DNA from: Actinomycetes bacterium
GTDB taxonomy: Bacteria; Actinomycetota; Thermoleophilia; Gaiellales; F1-60-MAGs149
Assembly (NCBI GenBank): GCA_025360225.1
Contig: JANYCN010000034.1
Location: forward strand, 1-34,062
Direction of reading: 5' to 3'
DNA: 34,062 nucleotides
Part shown: positions 10,900 to 33,662 of the stretch, piece after piece
How positions within the stretch are numbered: the first letter of the stretch is position 1
Layout of the letters: each line of letters begins with the position of its first letter
The notes under the pieces: model-generated
What the model was told of the DNA's origin: nothing
What the model saw: the letters and a program-made list of their open reading frames with translations, nothing else
Databases searched by the model: none
Position numbers and translations under genes: made by a program

Positions 10900-10961
10900 T
10901 CCGATCCGCCCCGCCGCGCGCTCCCCCCGCCGCGACCGCCATGGCGGTGGTCGCGCGACGT

Positions 10962-10976
10962 CATACTCCTGAGGTG
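10962..10976 (+). promoter_or_regulatory. Candidate leaderless promoter before the pgsA-like gene
   Basis: CATACT (10962-10967) is followed by six bases and GTG (10974). No ribosome-binding sequence precedes this GTG. No clear -35 element is seen, so support is the -10 form and spacing only. Confidence 0.35.
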
Positions 10977-11534
10977 GAGGAGGCCGAGACGATCGCGACG
11001 CGTGGCGTGGTGCACCATCTCCCGAACGCGCTGACGGCGGCGCGGCTGCTCGCGATCCCGTTCTTCGTCGTGCTCGAGCTCGATGCCCGCGGTGGCCACT
11101 CTTGGCCGGCCGGCCTGCTCTTCGCGGCGGCCTCGCTGACTGACTGGTTTGACGGCTACCTCGCGCGACGCTTGAACGTGTCGTCCCGCTTTGGCCGCCT
11201 TGCCGACCCGCTCGCCGACCGGCTGCTGATCGGGGCGGCAGTGCTGCTCCTGTGGCATAACAACCGCGTCCCGCTGCTCGTTCTCGCGCTCGTCATCGGG
11301 CGCGACCTGATCCTGATCGGTGGCTTCTCCGTCGCTGCCGACCGGGGCTACGAGCTCAGCGTTCTCTATCTCGGTAAGACGGCGACCTTCGTGCTGATGA
11401 TGGGGCTCGGGCTGATCATGTTCTCCCACCCGGGCGCGACCGTTCCCGACGTCGTGCTCGACGTTGGCGTCGTCCTGTCTCTCGCCGCCGGCGCCGTCTA
11501 CGTCGTGACCGTCGGGCGTCGCCTGCGCACCTAA
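10974..11534 (+). CDS. CDP-alcohol phosphatidyltransferase (PgsA-like)
   Basis: About 186 residues, an integral membrane enzyme that transfers a phosphatidyl group from CDP-diacylglycerol to an alcohol, probably glycerol 3-phosphate, in phospholipid synthesis. The CDP-OH-P signature is complete: DGYLAR, then G, then ADPLAD (D-G-x2-A-R-x8-G-x3-D-x3-D). Several hydrophobic helices follow. The N-terminal [10 protein letters not shown] is typical of PgsA. GTG 10974 is preferred because of the -10 six bases upstream; ATG 10941 is an in-frame alternative adding 11 residues. The gene is divergent from the mutase operon. In mycobacteria a pgsA paralogue also lies a few genes upstream of garA and the MerR gene, as here, which supports the assignment; the exact alcohol is not certain. 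Confidence 0.85.
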
Positions 11535-11548
11535 CCCTCAACTCTGTC

Positions 11549-11577
11549 TTGAAGCTTCCTGCATCTGCAGGTATGCT
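11549..11577 (+). promoter_or_regulatory. Sigma-70-type promoter before the RsiG-like gene
   Basis: TTGAAG (11549-11554), 17 bases, then TATGCT (11572-11577) form a good housekeeping promoter. A perfect inverted repeat, CCTGCA-TC-TGCAGG, fills the spacer (11557-11570) and could be an operator. Transcription would begin at about 11584-11585, on the GTG at 11585, which suggests a leaderless message. Confidence 0.6.
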
Positions 11578-11584
11578 GAGCGTG

Positions 11585-12073
11585 GTGACAAGCGAACCCG
11601 ATCCCACGCTCACTGACGACGACGTCCGCGAGCGCCTACGTGCCGCGCGGCGAGCGGAGGAGGACCTCTCGTTCCAACGGCGCATCCTGCACGGGCGCAT
11701 CGACGTCGTGCGGAGCGAGATCCTTGCCCGGGTCGACCGGGGGCGCGGCGTTGACCACGTCGTCGGTGACCTCGACGATCTCGTTGCTCGCCTCAAGGAG
11801 GCGTTGACGCACAAGGGGCCGCCGCCAATCGAGGCCGAGCTAGCGGAGTTCGGTCACGCCGACGACGGGGCAGGCGCGCCAGTCACCGTCGAGGACGAGC
11901 TTCCCGACCTGACCGAGCTGAGCGACTCCGACCTCGCGGGGCTCGTCCGCTCGCTCGGTGACGAGGAGCGGCGTACCTCAGCCGAACGACAGGAGCTACA
12001 CCGCGCGCTCGACGTGCTGCGGGCGAGCCACGTTGCGCGCCTGCAGAAGAAGTTCGCAGGCGACGGAGGCTGA
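11585..12073 (+). CDS. rsiG: RsiG-like c-di-GMP-responsive anti-sigma factor
   Basis: About 162 residues, mostly two long charged helices with a loop between, the shape of RsiG, which in Streptomyces uses c-di-GMP to hold sigma-WhiG inactive. The RsiG ligand signature is E-x3-S-x2-R-x3-Q-x3-D on each helix. Here it is seen twice with His for Gln: Glu25, Ser29, Arg32, His36, Asp40 (EEDLSFQRRILHGRID) and Glu128, Ser132, Arg135, His139, Asp143 (ERRTSAERQELHRALD). Two motif copies suggest it works as a monomer, as in Streptomyces, rather than as the one-motif homodimer described from Rubrobacter. GTG 11585 is chosen because the promoter -10 ends seven bases before it; the longer frame would start inside the -35. 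Four WhiG/FliA-type promoters further along the window are its plausible indirect targets. Confidence 0.8.
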   Translation: MTSEPDPTLTDDDVRERLRAARRAEEDLSFQRRILHGRIDVVRSEILARVDRGRGVDHVVGDLDDLVARLKEALTHKGPPPIEAELAEFGHADDGAGAPVTVEDELPDLTELSDSDLAGLVRSLGDEERRTSAERQELHRALDVLRASHVARLQKKFAGDGG

Positions 12074-12077
12074 CGTC

Positions 12078-12527
12078 ATGTTCTGCGGCGAGTGTGGGTT
12101 TCAGAACGGCGATGCCGCGAACTTCTGCTCGAAGTGTGGCTCGATGCTCGATCCAGACGAGGTCGCCGGCCAGACGACGGTGCTGTTTGGGGCAGGCGAC
12201 GTCGATGCCGCCGCGGCCGCCGCTGACGCCGCCGACCGCCCGACGCTCCTGATCCGCTCGGGCGGCGGTCGCGCCGGCGAGCACCTGCCGCTCCAGGCAG
12301 CGCGGGAGACGATCGGACGGGCGACGGAGGCTGACCTGTTCCTCGACGACGTGACGGTGTCGCGCGAGCATGCCGCGATCGAGCGCGAGCGCGACGGGTT
12401 CTACATCCGCGACCTCGGATCGCTGAACGGCACGTACGTGAACCGCTTGCGCGTCTCGCGCCAACGTCTCACCGACGGTGACGAGGTGCAGGTCGGAAAG
12501 TTCAAGCTGACCTTCCTGGAGCGCTGA
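12078..12527 (+). CDS. Zinc-ribbon FHA protein, GarA/OdhI-like
   Basis: 149 residues. An N-terminal zinc ribbon (Cys3, Cys6, Cys17, Cys20) is followed by a linker with TTVLF at 33-37, then a forkhead-associated domain at about 57-149 with the phosphothreonine-binding residues GR (80-81), S-R-x-H (95-98) and LNGTYVN (116-122). The FHA domain closely resembles mycobacterial GarA (DDVTVSR, GSLNGTYVN, GDEVQVGKF). GarA is a phospho-switch that inhibits 2-oxoglutarate dehydrogenase and glutamate enzymes until its N-terminal ETTS motif is phosphorylated; TTVLF may be the equivalent, but the zinc ribbon is not part of GarA. ATG 12078 has GGAGG nine bases upstream. It precedes the MerR gene as garA precedes Rv1828. 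Confidence 0.82.
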   Translation: MFCGECGFQNGDAANFCSKCGSMLDPDEVAGQTTVLFGAGDVDAAAAAADAADRPTLLIRSGGGRAGEHLPLQAARETIGRATEADLFLDDVTVSREHAAIERERDGFYIRDLGSLNGTYVNRLRVSRQRLTDGDEVQVGKFKLTFLER

Positions 12528-13207
12528 TGACGACGAACAGCGCCACCAAGCCTCTGACGATCGGCACCGTCTGTCGCACGCTGCGTGACGAGTTCGATGA
12601 CGTCTCGATCTCGAAGATCCGCTTCCTCGAGGACCAGGGGCTGCTGACGCCGCGCCGGTCTCCGGGCGGGTACCGCCAGTACGGCGTCGAGGAGGTCGAT
12701 CGCCTGCGGACGATCCTCCGGCTCCAGCGTGACGAGTTCCTGCCGCTGCGGGTCATCCGCGAGGAGCTCGCGACGGGCATCGCCGCACCCGACCGTCCCG
12801 CACGGCGGCGTGCGACGGCCGGCGGGGACGGCGCTCGGCGCTACGCCCGCGACGACCTGATCGCAGAGACGGCTGCCGACGGCGAGCTGGTGGACGAGCT
12901 CGCCGAGTTCGGGCTGATCGTCCCTGCGGCGAGCGACCGGCAGTACGGCGACGTCGACGTCGAGATCGTCCGTCTGGCGATGCAGCTCGCGCCCTTCGGG
13001 CTCGGACCCCGTCACCTGCGCCAGTTCCACGCCGCGGTCACGCGGGCGTCGGGGATGCTCGAGGGCGTCGTCTCGCCGGCGCTGCGCTCGCGCAACACCG
13101 ACCGCCGCGAAGCGGGACTTGACGATCTCTCCGCGCTCGCACGCATCTCCGCCGATCTCGCCGAACGGTTCCTGGTGCGCGAGGTGCTGAGCGCTGCCGG
13201 TGGCTGA
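12527..13207 (+). CDS. ftsR: MerR-family regulator, FtsR-like
   Basis: 226 residues. The N-terminal MerR winged helix (LTIGTVCRTLRDEFDDVSIS, then IRFLEDQGLLTPRRSPGGYRQY) matches the actinobacterial Rv1828/FtsR group, including the acidic insertion after the first helix. FtsR activates ftsZ in Corynebacterium. The C-terminal half (about 105-226) is helical, with an FGLGPRHLRQFH segment also characteristic of the group, and no metal-binding Cys pair typical of classical MerR sensors. Its ATG overlaps the FHA gene stop by one base (TGATG). The pair FHA-MerR is conserved across Actinobacteria, which supports the name; the target here is not shown. Confidence 0.82.
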   Translation: MTTNSATKPLTIGTVCRTLRDEFDDVSISKIRFLEDQGLLTPRRSPGGYRQYGVEEVDRLRTILRLQRDEFLPLRVIREELATGIAAPDRPARRRATAGGDGARRYARDDLIAETAADGELVDELAEFGLIVPAASDRQYGDVDVEIVRLAMQLAPFGLGPRHLRQFHAAVTRASGMLEGVVSPALRSRNTDRREAGLDDLSALARISADLAERFLVREVLSAAGG

Positions 13208-15269: not shown

Positions 15270-15884
15270 TCAGGCTGCGAAGCGGTTTCGCTCGTGGTCA
15301 AACGCCCCGGACCAGAGCTCGTGGGTGAACCGTTCGACGAGGCCGGCCCCTGGCGCCAGCGGACGGTCGACGAATCGAACGGTCGGGTCGTGGTAGAAGG
15401 GCTCGTCGAGGTGACGTTCGGAGACGATGTTGATCGAGACGCCGTCGCACGCCGCGCAGCGAACGGCGACGCCCACGAGACCCGGATGGCGGGTTGGTGC
15501 GAGCCGTGCGAGCCGGGATGGATAGCCGGGTCGCACGTCGTGCTCGCATGCGCAGTAGAAGGTCCACGGCCACACGCCTCGCCGGAGCTTGCGCTCGGTC
15601 CGGTCGGCGAGCTCTGGCGCGACTGGCTCGTCTCGACCCGTCAGGAGGTTACGAAACGTCGTGCTCTCGCGCGGGGCCACCGGGTCGACGTCGAGGTCCC
15701 GCTCCGTCAGCAGAGCGGCGTGCTCGCCAGCGCAGGCGGCACAACCGTAGGTGACGCGGTACACCGGTGGGGACGCCGCTCCAGCAAGGCGCTCGATCGA
15801 CCGGAGCGCCGAGAGCGGCCGCTCGACGTTCCCGTCGGTCGACGGACACGTGAACCGGTAACGGTTGCGTAGCGCGTCGTACAA
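15270..15884 (-). CDS. Conserved-looking cysteine-rich protein of unknown function
   Basis: About 204 residues, not recognised. Cysteines occur as single residues and pairs: FTCPSTDG, YGCAACAGEH, FYCACEHD and VRCAACDG. Two C-x-x-C units (CAAC) suggest zinc binding. The C-terminus is rich in aromatic and acidic residues. No signal peptide or membrane helix is visible. TTG at 15884 is preferred as the start because AGGAGGT lies six bases upstream; an in-frame ATG at 15929, overlapping the diguanylate cyclase stop as ATGA, would add 15 residues and has no good ribosome-binding site. It is probably co-transcribed with the cyclase, or driven by its own sigma-28-like promoter. Confidence 0.7.
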   Translation of the reverse strand: MYDALRNRYRFTCPSTDGNVERPLSALRSIERLAGAASPPVYRVTYGCAACAGEHAALLTERDLDVDPVAPRESTTFRNLLTGRDEPVAPELADRTERKLRRGVWPWTFYCACEHDVRPGYPSRLARLAPTRHPGLVGVAVRCAACDGVSINIVSERHLDEPFYHDPTVRFVDRPLAPGAGLVERFTHELWSGAFDHERNRFAA

Positions 15885-15903
15885 CGAGGCACCTCCTGCT
15901 GGA

Positions 15904-15932
15904 GTATCGGCGATTCGCCGTCGCGTCATGAG
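15904..15932 (-). promoter_or_regulatory. Weak sigma-28-like promoter on the minus strand
   Basis: CTCATG (15932-15927), 15 bases, GCCGATAC (15911-15904), followed by AGGAGGT and the TTG start at 15884. The -10 and spacing match the four better sites in the window, but the -35 is weaker and the site overlaps the end of the cyclase gene, so it may be chance. Confidence 0.3.
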
Positions 15933-16756
15933 GCCGCGCGTACCCGCCGGGGCGCAGCTGCACCAACGACCTCGACCCGGTCGCGGCCCCCACCCTTCGC
16001 GCGGTACAGCGCCGCGTCCGCGGCGGCGAAGAGCGCTTCGGCACTGCGCCCGTTTCCAGGGCACTCTGCGACGCCGGCGCTGATCGTCGTGCCGACGGGG
16101 CGCCGTCCCTGTCCGATGGGCACGACGATCTCGCCTACCGCGGCGCGGATCCGCTCCGCGAGACCGGCTGCCTGGCGCGCCGAGCCGGGCACGAGGACGA
16201 CGAGCTCCTCACCGCCAAAGCGACACGCGACGTCAGAGTCGCGAACGAGCCCGGTGATCGTCGCACCTACGCGAGCGAGAAGGGCGTTGCCGGCGGCGTG
16301 CCCGTAGCGGTCATTGAACTCCTTGAACCGATCAAGGTCGAGCAGCACGAGCGAGCACGTTCCCCCGTACCGTCGAACCCTGCCGACCTCACGGGCGAGC
16401 GCGTCGGCGAAGTAGGCGTACGTGTGCAGACCGGTCAGGCGGTCAACGTCCACCTGCTCGGCGAGCCGGTCGGTGGCGTCGTCCCGGCGCGACGTGCGAT
16501 CGTAGATCGCCACCGCGCCGACGCCGAGCGCGACGCGAACGGGGCCGTCGATCGGCACGAGCCCCGCTCCGACGCAGGAAACGACGAGCCCGACAAGACC
16601 GCCGCCCGCTGCAGCGAAGCCGACGCCAGCCGCTGCAAGCGCCGGTGCGGCGACAGGCTGCCAGTGATCCGCGAGGCCGCTCAGCACCAGCAACAGGACG
16701 CCGCCAACGACCGAGACGAGCCGGAAGCGCCGTTGGCGGATCGAGAGGGCCGTCAC
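15926..16756 (-). CDS. Membrane-bound diguanylate cyclase (GGDEF)
   Basis: 276 residues. It makes cyclic di-GMP from two GTP. Two or three hydrophobic helices (about residues 13-85) are followed directly by a GGDEF domain (about 100-265) with no sensory domain between. Active-site GGEEL is at 181-185 and the metal/substrate segment DLDRFKEFND at 140-149. The inhibitory I-site RxxD is intact (Arg172, Asp175, five residues before GGEEL), so product inhibition is expected. The start is GTG. It is divergent from the flagellar operon across 141 bases that carry a sigma-28-type promoter. With an RsiG-like c-di-GMP reader about 4 kb away it is a natural candidate for setting the signal. Confidence 0.9.
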   Translation of the reverse strand: MTALSIRQRRFRLVSVVGGVLLLVLSGLADHWQPVAAPALAAAGVGFAAAGGGLVGLVVSCVGAGLVPIDGPVRVALGVGAVAIYDRTSRRDDATDRLAEQVDVDRLTGLHTYAYFADALAREVGRVRRYGGTCSLVLLDLDRFKEFNDRYGHAAGNALLARVGATITGLVRDSDVACRFGGEELVVLVPGSARQAAGLAERIRAAVGEIVVPIGQGRRPVGTTISAGVAECPGNGRSAEALFAAADAALYRAKGGGRDRVEVVGAAAPRRVRAAS

Positions 16757-16802: not shown

Positions 16803-16831
16803 CTCAAGCTCGTTACGAGCGGTGCCGATAC
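16803..16831 (+). promoter_or_regulatory. Sigma-28/WhiG-type promoter P1 (flgF operon)
   Basis: CTCAAG (16803-16808), 15 bases, GCCGATAC (16824-16831). The -10 matches GCCGATAA in seven of eight bases. It lies 66 bases upstream of the flgF GTG and would drive flgF to csrA. Confidence 0.72.
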
Positions 16832-16897: not shown

Positions 16898-17629
16898 GTG
16901 GAACGAGGGCTCTACATCGCCGCATCAGGGATGCTTGCGGCAGAGATCCGACAGGACGTCATCGCGAACAACCTGGCGAACGCCACCAACCCCGGCTTCA
17001 AGGGCGACAAGCTCGTGCAGCAGGCGTTCGGCGACCTCCTTCTCTCGAACACGCAGACCGGCAATCTGATCGGTCCGCTCTCCGTCGGCACGCAGGTGAA
17101 GACGATCAGCGTCGACCTCTCGAACGGTGGGCCGCAGTTCGACGGACGTCCGCTCGACCTTGCGGTGACCGGCGATGGCTGGTTCGCTGTTGGCGCTTCC
17201 GGCGGCACCACCTACACCCGCAATGGAGCGTTCACGACGAACGCGTCGGGGCAGATCGTCACCGCCCAGGGAGACCCGGTGCTCGACGCGAAGGGGAAGC
17301 CGATCACGATCACCGGCACCGGGCAGGTCTCGATCGCACGAGACGGCACCGTCTCCGTCGGCGGTGCGGTGGCCGGCAAGATCGGGCTCGTCGCCCTCAC
17401 CCCGTCCTCCGTCACGCACCTCGGCATGAACCAGTACGCGGGAACGCCGACCGGGAAGCCCGCCTCCGGCTCGATCGCCCAGGGGGCGCTGGAGTCCTCG
17501 AACATCAACACCGTCACCGAGATGGTGTCGCTGATCCAGAACATGCGCGAGTTCGAGGCCGATCAGAAGGCGATGCGGGCCCTCGACGACACGATCGACA
17601 AGGCTGTCAACCAGGTCGGGAGGGTCTGA
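16898..17629 (+). CDS. flgF: Flagellar basal-body rod protein FlgF
   Basis: 243 residues of the FlgE/F/G rod-hook family, exported by the flagellar type III system to build the rod. The N-terminal IAASGMLAAEIRQDVIANNLAN is the family heptad motif, and the C-terminal VTEMVSLIQNMREFEADQKAM is the conserved coiled-coil end. The middle includes VTGDGWFAV and TYTRNGAFT. Called FlgF because a second, longer family member (FlgG) follows at once. GTG 16898 has GGAGG seven bases upstream; the open frame extends far upstream but over the non-coding promoter and the antisense cyclase gene. The two paralogues could in principle be swapped. Confidence 0.86.
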   Translation: MERGLYIAASGMLAAEIRQDVIANNLANATNPGFKGDKLVQQAFGDLLLSNTQTGNLIGPLSVGTQVKTISVDLSNGGPQFDGRPLDLAVTGDGWFAVGASGGTTYTRNGAFTTNASGQIVTAQGDPVLDAKGKPITITGTGQVSIARDGTVSVGGAVAGKIGLVALTPSSVTHLGMNQYAGTPTGKPASGSIAQGALESSNINTVTEMVSLIQNMREFEADQKAMRALDDTIDKAVNQVGRV

Positions 17630-18414
17630 TGTTGGACGCGCTCTACACGGCGGCAAGCGGCATGCTCGGGCAGCAGACGGCGCTCGACACGATCGCGAAC
17701 AACCTGTCGAACGTCAACACCGTCGGCTTCAAGTCAGGTCGTACGGCGTTCGAGGACCTCCTCTACAACCAGCTCATGCCGTCCGCGGGCGCGGCGCAGG
17801 GCAACCAGATGGGTCTCGGCTCAGCGGTGAGCGCGATCCAGGTGCAGATGGACCAGGGGAACCTGCAGGCGGCGTCGGGCCAGCTCGACATGGGGATCGA
17901 TGGTTCAGGGTTCTTCCGCGTTCAGAAGGCCGACGGCACGACGTTGTACTCCCGCGCCGGCAACTTCGACCGCGATGGCGCCGGGCAACTGGTGACCGCG
18001 CGCGGCGAGCTCGTCCTCGGCACGGACGGCAAGGCGATCGCCTTCCCGCCGGACGCGAACATGGCGACGCTGAACGTCGAGGCGAACGGTGCGATCCGTG
18101 TCGACTCGGCGACGAAGGGTGCGAAGTTCCTCGTCGGCACGATCTCCCTGGCGACGTTCCGCAACGCGGCGGGGCTCGTGCCGCTCGGCGGAAACGCGTA
18201 TGGCGAGAGCCCAAACTCCGGTCCGCCGGTGACCGGCGCGCCGACGACGCCCGGCTTCGGCACGCTCAAGCCGGGCACGTTGGAGATGTCGAACGTGAGC
18301 GCGGTGAACGAGATGGTCGGCATGATCACGACCCAGCGTGCGTTCGAGGCGGTCTCGAAGGTCGTCCAGGCGTCTGATGAGATGCTCGGCATCGCTGACG
18401 GGTTGCGCCGCTGA
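17629..18414 (+). CDS. flgG: Flagellar distal rod protein FlgG
   Basis: 261 residues. YTAASGMLGQQTALDTIANN at the start and MSNVSAVNEMVGMITTQRAFEAVSK near the end are the terminal domains that form the D0 coiled coil; IDGSGFFRV and TLYSRAGNF are in the core. The length matches FlgG (about 260). ATG shares one base with the flgF stop (TGATG). It assembles on the FlgF rod section outside the membrane, exported without a Sec signal. Confidence 0.9.
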   Translation: MLDALYTAASGMLGQQTALDTIANNLSNVNTVGFKSGRTAFEDLLYNQLMPSAGAAQGNQMGLGSAVSAIQVQMDQGNLQAASGQLDMGIDGSGFFRVQKADGTTLYSRAGNFDRDGAGQLVTARGELVLGTDGKAIAFPPDANMATLNVEANGAIRVDSATKGAKFLVGTISLATFRNAAGLVPLGGNAYGESPNSGPPVTGAPTTPGFGTLKPGTLEMSNVSAVNEMVGMITTQRAFEAVSKVVQASDEMLGIADGLRR

Positions 18415-18722
18415 TGGCCGGGATCGGCGGCATCGACGCGGTCGGCCCGCTCCCGAACGGCGTCAAGCCGCCAGCAACGGCGGCCGAGAAGGCGCTCTAC
18501 GAGGCCTGCAAGAGCTTCGAGGCCGTCTTCGCACGCCAGATCGTCGACGGCTGGATGAAGGCCGCCCGCGGCGACGATGCCGCGACCGGCGGCGAGGGGA
18601 TCTACCAGAACATGGCCGACGAGCAGATGACGAAGTCGTTGGTCGACGGCGGCAGCTTCGGTCTGGCGGGCACCCTCTACGGACAGCTTGCTCCGACGGT
18701 GCGGACGGCGCCCACGTCATGA
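18414..18722 (+). CDS. flgJ: FlgJ-type rod-binding protein (no muramidase domain)
   Basis: 102 residues. AEKALYEACKSFEAVFARQIVDGWMKA and MADEQMTKSLVDGGSFGLAGTLY match the rod-binding (Rod-bind) domain of FlgJ, the cap for rod assembly. The C-terminal peptidoglycan hydrolase domain of enterobacterial FlgJ is absent, as is usual in Gram-positive and many other lineages. ATG overlaps the flgG stop by one base and the next start by four. Confidence 0.85.
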   Translation: MAGIGGIDAVGPLPNGVKPPATAAEKALYEACKSFEAVFARQIVDGWMKAARGDDAATGGEGIYQNMADEQMTKSLVDGGSFGLAGTLYGQLAPTVRTAPTS

Positions 18723-22382: not shown

Positions 22383-22411
22383 CTCAAGTGTCACCGATCG
22401 TACGCCGATAA
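22383..22411 (+). promoter_or_regulatory. Sigma-28/WhiG-type promoter P2 (fliC)
   Basis: CTCAAG (22383-22388), 15 bases, GCCGATAA (22404-22411), a full match to the sigma-28 -10. It begins 15 bases after the csrA stop and would give a fliC leader of roughly 125 bases. Confidence 0.85.
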
Positions 22412-22543: not shown

Positions 22544-23359
22544 GTGGCGCTTCGGATCAACACGAACATCGGGTCGTTAACGGCGCACCGCATGCTCGAG
22601 CGGACGCAGAGCGAGCTCTCGGGCTCGATCGAGAAGCTCTCGAGCGGCCTGCGGATCAACCACGCCTCCGACGATGCGGCGGGACTCGCCGTGTCCGAGA
22701 AGCTGCGGGTCGGCATCCTCGGCCTGCAGCAGGCGGCGCGCAACACCCAGGACGGGATCTCGCTCGTCCAGACCGCGGAGGGTGCGCTGAACGAGGTGCA
22801 CTCGATCGTGCAGCGCGTGCGCGAGCTCGCCGTCCAGTACGCGAACGGCACCCTGTCGGCGAACGATCGCTCGGCGATCGCCACGGAGGTCGGCCAGCTC
22901 TCCGCTGAGGTCGGTCGGATCGCCGGCTCGACGAGCTTCAACGGCATCGACCTGCTCTCTGCCAGCACCGTTCTGACGTTCCAGGTCGGTGGCGTCGCAG
23001 GCGAGACGATCACGATGTCGACCGTCGGCATGTACGCAGGTTCGCCTCCGGTGATCGACCCGGCGATCTTCAACCTCGCCTCGACGACCTTCGACGTCGG
23101 CCTCGTCGACGCGGCGATCGCTTCCGTCGCTGACGCTCGCTCGGGGCTCGGCGCGGTGCAGAACCGCCTCGAGCACACGATCGCCAACCTCAACGTCTAC
23201 CAGGAGAACCTGCAGGCGTCCGAGTCGCGGATCCGCGACGTCGACGTCGCGCAGGAGATGGCGAACCTCACCCGCCTGCAGATCCTCTCCCAGTCCGGCG
23301 TCGCGATGCTTGCTCAGGCGAACCAGGCACCGCAGAGCGTGATGCAGCTGCTGAAGTAG
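22544..23359 (+). CDS. fliC: Flagellin
   Basis: 271 residues, a compact flagellin made almost only of the conserved D0/D1 ends. N-terminal ALRINTNIGSLTAHRML and EKLSSGLRINHASDDAAGLA, and RVRELAVQYANGT in D1, are textbook. C-terminal NRLEHTIANLNVYQENLQAS and LSQSGVAMLAQANQAPQSVMQLL complete the terminal coiled coil. The variable domain (about residues 145-195) is only some 50 residues. GTG start with SD seven bases upstream, inside a putative CsrA hairpin. It is transcribed alone or with the next gene from P2. A sugar-nucleotide gene block downstream shares the promoter type, so the filament may be glycosylated. Confidence 0.95.
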   Translation: MALRINTNIGSLTAHRMLERTQSELSGSIEKLSSGLRINHASDDAAGLAVSEKLRVGILGLQQAARNTQDGISLVQTAEGALNEVHSIVQRVRELAVQYANGTLSANDRSAIATEVGQLSAEVGRIAGSTSFNGIDLLSASTVLTFQVGGVAGETITMSTVGMYAGSPPVIDPAIFNLASTTFDVGLVDAAIASVADARSGLGAVQNRLEHTIANLNVYQENLQASESRIRDVDVAQEMANLTRLQILSQSGVAMLAQANQAPQSVMQLLK

Positions 23360-32655: not shown

Positions 32656-32684
32656 CTCAGGTCGCGGTGAGGCCGTGCCGATAC
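32656..32684 (+). promoter_or_regulatory. Sigma-28/WhiG-type promoter P3 (sugar-nucleotide genes)
   Basis: CTCAGG (32656-32661), 15 bases, GCCGATAC (32677-32684). It is nine bases before the ATG of the epimerase gene, so the message would be almost leaderless. Bases after the -10 (CGCTT) resemble those after P1 (TGCTT). Confidence 0.65.
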
Positions 32685-32693
32685 CGCTTGTAG

Positions 32694-33662
32694 ATGGTAC
32701 GGACATCCTCTGAGAGCGCTGCGCTCGTTGGCCGAACGCTCGTCACAGGGAGCGCCGGCTTCGTTGGCGCCCACCTCCTCTCGACGCTCGACGCGGCGGG
32801 GTTCGAGGTGGTCGGCGCGAGCCGGGCAGAGGCTGACCTCGCTGACCGCTCTGCCGTCGTTGCCCTTCTCCGGCGCGAGAAGATCGTCACCGTCGTCCAC
32901 GCCGCCGGGCGTGTCGGCGGTATCGCGGCGAACGTCGCCGACCCGGTTGGCTTCTTCACGGAGAACCTCGCCGTCGGGCAGGCGGTCGTGCTCGGCGCGC
33001 ACGAGGCCGGTGTCGAGCGTCTCTTGAACCTGTCGTCAAGCTGCGTCTACCCCCGCGACCGCTCGCGGCTCGTCGAGGAGGACCTGCTCACCGGTCAGCT
33101 CGAGCCGACGAACGAGGGGTACGCGCTGGCGAAGCTCGCGGTGATGCGGCTCTGCGACTGGCTCGCGGCGACCTCAGACGACCGCTGGTACCGCACGCTC
33201 GTGCCGTGCAACCTGTACGGGCCCGGCGACTCCTTCGACCCGGTGCGCGGCCACCTCGTGAGCCGTGCGATCGCGAAGGTCGTCGACGCGCTGGACGCGG
33301 ACGCCTCGGCGGTCGAGATCTGGGGAGACGGCATGGCGCGACGGGAGTTCCTCCACGTACGAGACCTCGCGCGCGCGGTCGCGTTCACGTTGCCGCTGCT
33401 CGAGTCGCTCCCGCAGGCCCTGAACGTCGGCAGCGGCGAGGACCGCTCGGTCAACGGGTGGTACGAAGCCGTCGCGGCCGCCGCTGGGTTCGGCGGCCGC
33501 TTCACGCACGACCTCGACCGGCCGGTGGGAATGGCGCGGAAGCTCCTCGACGTGTCGCGCCTGACGGCGCTCGGGTTCACGCCGAGCACGACCGTCGACG
33601 TCGGGTTGCGCGAGACGATCACGCACTACCGGACGTTTTGCACGCAAGCCGTGGCGGCATGA
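32694..33662 (+). CDS. NAD(P)-dependent epimerase, GDP-L-fucose-synthase-like
   Basis: 322 residues of the extended SDR family. Cofactor loop GSAGFVGAHL (19-28), active-site Ser115, Cys117, Tyr143 and Lys147 (SSSCVYP, YALAK), and the fucose-synthase hallmarks AAGRVGGIAANVADP, LEPTNEGYA, PCNLYGPGDSFDP and REFLHVRDLA. It probably makes GDP-L-fucose or a related GDP-deoxyhexose by epimerisation and reduction. ATG 32694 lies nine bases from the P3 -10. It overlaps the next gene by four bases. With a flagellar-type promoter it may supply sugars for flagellin or surface polymer glycosylation; this is inference. Confidence 0.87.
   Translation: MVRTSSESAALVGRTLVTGSAGFVGAHLLSTLDAAGFEVVGASRAEADLADRSAVVALLRREKIVTVVHAAGRVGGIAANVADPVGFFTENLAVGQAVVLGAHEAGVERLLNLSSSCVYPRDRSRLVEEDLLTGQLEPTNEGYALAKLAVMRLCDWLAATSDDRWYRTLVPCNLYGPGDSFDPVRGHLVSRAIAKVVDALDADASAVEIWGDGMARREFLHVRDLARAVAFTLPLLESLPQALNVGSGEDRSVNGWYEAVAAAAGFGGRFTHDLDRPVGMARKLLDVSRLTALGFTPSTTVDVGLRETITHYRTFCTQAVAA

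Follow-up and report, generated by a model that had tools for sequence, protein, structure and literature searches.

How does an uncultured, flagellated actinobacterium of the class Thermoleophilia come to encode an RsiG protein with two motifs on one chain, and what would such a protein control? The question is raised by a gene, rsiG, at positions 11,585 to 12,073 of the forward strand of contig JANYCN010000034.1 (assembly GCA_025360225.1), the whole 34,062 nucleotides of which are called the window below. From Thermoleophilia and Rubrobacteria only single-motif, homodimeric forms of RsiG, an anti-sigma factor governed by cyclic di-GMP (c-di-GMP), have been reported (2021 study, PMC8325347), and what is unusual here is the very presence of a twin-motif RsiG in Thermoleophilia, a point missed by the first-pass annotation of the window. 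The most likely product of the gene is a brake, controlled by c-di-GMP, on the only flagellar-type sigma factor of its genome. The best explanation as a whole, which we consider probable, is that an RsiG-family, c-di-GMP-dependent anti-sigma factor acts on the sole FliA/WhiG sigma factor, and that its twin form came from a duplication within the class.

The twin-motif protein

The open reading frame runs from a GTG at 11,585 to a stop at 12,073 and encodes 162 amino acids, with alternative in-frame starts at GTG 11,582 and ATG 11,573. Its product matches the RsiG family PF22802 in two stretches (69.7 bits against a cut-off of 27, E 1.7e-19), and phmmer aligns residues 13-152 with chain 6pfj_T, the RsiG of Streptomyces venezuelae (E 8.4e-7). 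Two copies of the E-x3-S-x2-R-x3-[Q/H]-x3-D motif can be read from the sequence. The first, in helix 1 (11,657 to 11,704, forward strand), is EEDLSFQRRILHGRID, with the pattern E-EDL-S-FQ-R-RIL-H-GRI-D and the key residues E25, S29, R32, H36 and D40; the second, in helix 2 (11,966 to 12,013, forward strand), is ERRTSAERQELHRALD, with the pattern E-RRT-S-AE-R-QEL-H-RAL-D and the key residues E128, S132, R135, H139 and D143. Both sets of five are invariant across the Thermoleophilia twins (alignment A1), and all ten residues are intact in the window protein and in the RsiG of a related genome, Bin_62_12 (G179). A Pfam scan of the window protein listed no FlgM (PF04316). Judged by sequence, the gene is confidently a member of the RsiG family and its motifs are not chance occurrences, so that the first-pass description of an RsiG-like protein with an E-x3-S-x2-R-x3-H-x3-D motif on each of two helices stands.

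The predicted structure points the same way. One model drew on an alignment restricted to Thermoleophilia twins, without canonical RsiGs, and a second on a deeper alignment of 30 twins that included canonical ones. Two long helices are predicted, at residues 11-53 and 114-159, with one motif on each, and in the deep-alignment model their predicted local distance difference test scores are about 93-96. In Foldseek searches ranks 1-4 for the first model, and ranks 1-3 for the second (E 2.9e-3), were all S. venezuelae RsiG chains. The closest fold to the model is 6pfv/6pfj, and VIA-align superimposes it on S. venezuelae RsiG with a Z of 9.8 over 125 residues at 4.2 Å. Many unrelated long-helix chains reach a similar Z, long-helix matches being otherwise unspecific, and because such proteins score nearly as high the fold backs the sequence evidence and does not substitute for it. 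As a prediction for the protein alone, the outcome is nevertheless the antiparallel coiled coil with one motif per helix that the first-pass annotation had anticipated.

Two known kinds of RsiG are the natural comparisons. Like the S. venezuelae protein (PDB 6PFJ, 6PFV), its top structural match, the window RsiG has two E-S-R-[Q/H]-D motifs per chain, a similar length, a tail-to-head order and a WhiG partner gene in the same genome; it differs in having His/His rather than Gln/Gln, in its gene neighbourhood, and in its predicted targets, which are motility genes and not sporulation genes. With the single-motif homodimeric proteins of Conexibacter woesei and Rubrobacter radiotolerans (PDB 7LQ2-7LQ4) it shares the rsiG-FHA-FtsR locus and the N-terminal and tail sequences, and with Thermoleophilia singles the same His. 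Those proteins carry one motif per chain of about 90-110 amino acids and form homodimers, whereas the window protein holds both motifs in one chain.

Origin of the twin form

In the published account, a single intragenic duplication gave the twin RsiG inherited elsewhere, and horizontal transfer was invoked for scattered twins (2021 study, PMC8325347). Our class sample was drawn by whole-protein or family search and was thus not selected for His. RsiGs in it are mostly single-motif, and twins occur in three lineages: family f1, family f12 and one genus (g4) of family f2. The f1 twins are those of the window genome, of G179 and, by similarity, of AVDCRST_MAG79; their halves are 28-34% identical, as divergent as the halves of canonical twins. 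In the f12 twins each half repeats the single-motif protein in full, and the two share 62-66% identity. Five f12 loci (L120, L121, L122, L044 and L045) show near-perfect tandem duplication with full tails in both halves, and no flagellin was found in those genomes. The twin from f2 (locus L116 of genome G003) has halves 52% identical, both with His; six PF22802 matches in that genome indicate that paralogues exist.

Gene order separates these twins from the canonical ones. Every one of the 40 single-motif RsiGs examined, whether from the class or from outside it, lies next to an FHA and an FtsR-type gene. The twins of the three Thermoleophilia lineages sit at this same locus, and of 24 twins from other classes not one does (the scan used the window neighbours as queries and counted adjacency up to overlapping stop-to-stop frames). 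Because the three Thermoleophilia twin lineages occupy the locus of the singles and other-class twins do not, it is likely that duplication in place gave rise to the twin form more than once. The window RsiG accordingly has the locus and the His of a Thermoleophilia single and departs from it in carrying more than one motif per chain; it lacks the position away from FHA and FtsR common to all 24 canonical twins.

Similarity within the protein agrees with the gene order. On average, both halves resemble the singles of the class more than they resemble canonical halves; the C half has a mean identity of 44% with class singles and 30% with the C halves of canonical twins. The N half is continued by a tail of the single type, LKEALTHKGPPP, where the single L006 of the same order has LTEILAHKGPPP, and the beginning of the C half (LPDLTELSDSDL) resembles that of a single-motif protein. 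When the tree was left free, both halves fell among same-order singles, outside both canonical clades. Whereas family, motifs and locus can be read directly, we infer the independent duplication from them; on synteny and similarity, an independent origin of the f1 twin is likely.

The native order is pgsA-rsiG-FHA-ftsR, and in the window all of its members lie on the forward strand. Upstream is a pgsA-like gene for a CDP-alcohol phosphatidyltransferase (10,938 to 11,534; PF01066, 121.6 bits; TIGR00560 above cut-off), and downstream are a zinc-ribbon and FHA-domain protein of the GarA/OdhI kind (12,078 to 12,527; PF00498, 75.8 bits) and an FtsR-type MerR regulator (12,527 to 13,207; NF050798, 201 bits against a cut-off of 150), all three being neighbours conserved in synteny. 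A likely rsiG promoter region lies at 11,536 to 11,577 (forward strand), where a palindrome, CCTCAA-N7-TTGA, overlies a -35 element TTGAAG (11,549), followed by a 17-nt spacer and a -10 element TATGCT (11,572); a strict sigma-70 scan made no call there. This region is conserved in L118, and the palindrome recurs with small changes 5' of rsiG in the same-order loci L006, L007, L010, L014 and L118. The neighbouring MerR-type FtsR may use this palindrome as an operator. The -10 element is about 8 nt before GTG 11,585, which suggests a leaderless rsiG message.

Sigma partner, promoters and output

The sigma partner that the first-pass annotation called for is present. One protein of the genome, encoded in the region 72,837-73,517 of contig C5, exceeds the cut-off of the FliA/WhiG profile TIGR02479, with 289.6 bits, and the next best, at 116.7, falls below it. 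It aligns with S. venezuelae WhiG over residues 6-253 (291 bits), and its R36, G40 and R41 align with the c-di-GMP-contacting K57, G61 and R62 of WhiG, with one conservative change. G179 likewise has one FliA/WhiG sigma factor, as against two or three in 42 of the 58 flagellated Thermoleophilia genomes. FlgM, a short and divergent protein, gave no match in the window genome at E <= 1 and none in G179, and its matches elsewhere in the class are weak and scattered.

No match to the textbook promoter, TAAA-N14-16-GCCGATAA, was found in the window or the genome, and the WhiG/FliA-type promoters that had been proposed before motility genes take another -35 form. With up to one mismatch, TCARG-N15-GCCGATAM occurs at 5 sites in the window vs 0.10 expected, 3 of them perfect; the related TMAR-N15-17-GCCGATAM has 12 sites in the genome vs 0 for the reversed pattern. 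On the forward strand of the window, a promoter TCAAG-N15-GCCGATAC (16,804 to 16,831) precedes flgF/flgG-type rod genes and a rod-binding, FlgJ-type gene (16,898 to 18,722; PF00460, PF22692, PF06429, PF10135); TCAAG-N15-GCCGATAA (22,384 to 22,411) precedes the flagellin gene (22,544 to 23,359; PF00669, 151.8 bits, and PF00700); and TCAGG-N15-GCCGATAC (32,657 to 32,684) precedes a gene for an NAD-dependent epimerase at 32,694. The first-pass reading of a flagellated genome in the class Thermoleophilia is likewise supported.

By Pfam match or by reading, the genes 3' of the genome sites comprise flagellin, flgF/G, the epimerase, fliP, fliL, cpaB of a Tad pilus, a methyl-accepting chemotaxis protein, a PilZ protein and a thiamine pyrophosphate enzyme. 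The TCARG form stands before flagellin, flgFG, fliP, cpaB and the PilZ gene, and variants of it before fliL (TAAG) and the chemotaxis gene (one base shorter); about 3 of the 12 sites (L048, L049 and L051) look like chance. G179 has sites before fliL and an FlhB-like gene. There is little signal in the f12 genomes, in which no flagellin was found (8-11 sites each vs 1-4 for the reversed control), one site there preceding a PilT-like gene (genome G130).

There are 17 GGDEF domains in the window genome. One belongs to a diguanylate cyclase (15,926 to 16,756, reverse strand; PF00990, 133.7 bits) that is divergent from the flgFG operon and possibly serves as a local source of c-di-GMP. Downstream of the cyclase a protein of about 223 amino acids without a Pfam match is encoded at 15,273-15,941 (reverse strand), and a one-mismatch WhiG-type site lies near its start, at 15,904-15,931 (reverse strand).

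The mechanism these elements suggest can be put as follows. Binding of c-di-GMP, binding of sigma and the direction of control we infer. A single polypeptide would form an antiparallel coiled coil by itself, with an E-S-R-H-D motif on each of its two helices, and the two motifs together would hold a c-di-GMP dimer across it. When c-di-GMP is high, the loaded RsiG would sequester the single FliA/WhiG sigma factor, keeping the TCARG-N15-GCCGATAM promoters and their close variants off; the affected targets would be flagellin, flagellar rod and export genes, a chemoreceptor, the Tad pilus operon, the PilZ protein and surface-sugar genes. As c-di-GMP falls, sigma would be freed and the cell become motile. 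The twin itself would have come from a head-to-tail duplication, at pgsA-rsiG-FHA-ftsR, of the single-motif homodimeric RsiG of the class, apart from the Streptomyces-type twin. By analogy, the window RsiG may hold back the flagellar sigma factor much as FlgM, the classical anti-sigma-28 factor, does. The hold of FlgM ends when it is exported through the hook; RsiG is unrelated to it in sequence and would let go as c-di-GMP falls.

The distribution of the genes bears on how far this control extends back in time. Among 299 genomes of the class, RsiG was found in 233 and WhiG in 228 (both in 217, RsiG only in 16, WhiG only in 11, neither in 55), and flagellin in 58, of which 56 have RsiG. This last figure fits the earlier suggestion that flagellar control may have been the ancestral job. 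That said, 177 of the 233 genomes with RsiG are without flagellin, and the RsiG-WhiG switch of Rubrobacter controls type IV pili; because RsiG is far commoner than flagella, the ancestral part of the suggestion is not shown. In one f1 genus (g2, 11 genomes), RsiG, WhiG and flagellin are missing together, which fits a joint loss of switch and flagellum.

Alternative readings and meaning

The first-pass annotation laid its emphasis on the two histidines, which replace Gln in both motifs and could, it was argued, alter recognition, so that another nucleotide is bound or binding is lost. His does stand where the Streptomyces RsiG structure has a Gln that stacks on guanine (PMC8325347). In the alignment proposed as a check, E-S-R-H-D is present in all 44 sampled single-motif Thermoleophilia RsiGs, and the change is thus not special. 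In the literature the motif is already given as Q/H; His is frequent in RsiG helix 1 and was judged suitable for stacking on guanine, and the His-type RsiG of C. woesei, a member of Thermoleophilia, binds c-di-GMP (Kd 25 µM alone, 1.7 µM with WhiG) and does not bind c-di-AMP (PMC8325347). Since His is the class norm and a His-type RsiG is published to bind c-di-GMP, altered recognition is rejected as very improbable. The paired Gln-to-His change is no discovery, His being ordinary for Thermoleophilia; His/His is best read as one inherited class His, duplicated, rather than as a paired innovation. A twin that has degenerated, so that helix 1 alone binds c-di-GMP or the response to it is lost, is improbable as well. 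Helix 2 of canonical twins has Gln, His or a hydrophobic residue, with F, L, I or M at that position in 13 of 24, and motif 2 of the relative L119 ends in Glu for Asp, which also counts against a working twin in the window lineage; the ten intact residues of the window protein and G179 argue the other way.

The same c-di-GMP anti-sigma mechanism could reside in a twin descended from the canonical one, by one duplication inherited or transferred, that replaced the native single in place. A grouping of the halves with canonical twins survives approximately unbiased (AU) tests on half-domains and on N halves with tails (p 0.51, 0.48 and 0.32), the low identity between the halves is compatible with an old duplication, and the transfer invoked for scattered twins (PMC8325347) could have brought such a gene into the locus. 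These points weigh against in-class duplication. The trees have 50-95 columns, and because p is 0.39 even for f12, where the duplication is obvious, the tests have little power. The locus, the nearness of both halves to class singles, the fit of His/His to the class (canonical helix 1 has Gln in 17 of 24, His in 7) and the two further lineages with halves 52-66% identical, in which duplication demonstrably recurs, make canonical descent unlikely. Somewhat less unlikely is a genuine RsiG whose main output through WhiG is pili or other surface traits, the flagellar sites being a side branch. It draws on the many RsiG genomes without flagellin, on Rubrobacter, and on the sites before cpaB here and the PilT-like gene in G130, whereas most well-placed sites in the window genome precede flagellar or chemotaxis genes, TIGR02479 found no other FliA-type sigma factor there, and nearly all flagellated genomes have RsiG. 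Other points also tell against the main reading: the -35 form TCARG was fitted after the sites were seen, only the -10 having been set beforehand; the position of WhiG K57 is Arg in this sigma factor; and because the genome is a draft, 96.9% complete, an FlgM or a second sigma factor may have been missed.

In-class duplication and a brake on the flagellar sigma factor remain the preferred reading, and the interesting parts are the twin form in Thermoleophilia and the single-sigma flagellar link, the paired His being ordinary. The fullest version has an even chance of being right: a single-motif homodimeric RsiG would have turned into a one-chain twin on at least three further, independent occasions inside Thermoleophilia (f1, f12 and genus g4 of f2), and the twin of the window lineage would directly brake the only flagellar sigma factor, c-di-GMP replacing FlgM as the signal for late flagellar genes and Tad pili. 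No paper linking RsiG to flagella was found in the open-access literature searched. The window RsiG is new in architecture and probably in history, with a likely flagellar and pilus regulon. If the native-locus duplications were repeated and of different ages (halves 62-66%, 52% and 28-34% identical), the class would offer a natural series from a homodimer to an asymmetric one-chain protein, and a c-di-GMP-dependent anti-sigma factor on the sole flagellar sigma factor would, if confirmed, link c-di-GMP directly to flagella at the level of transcription.
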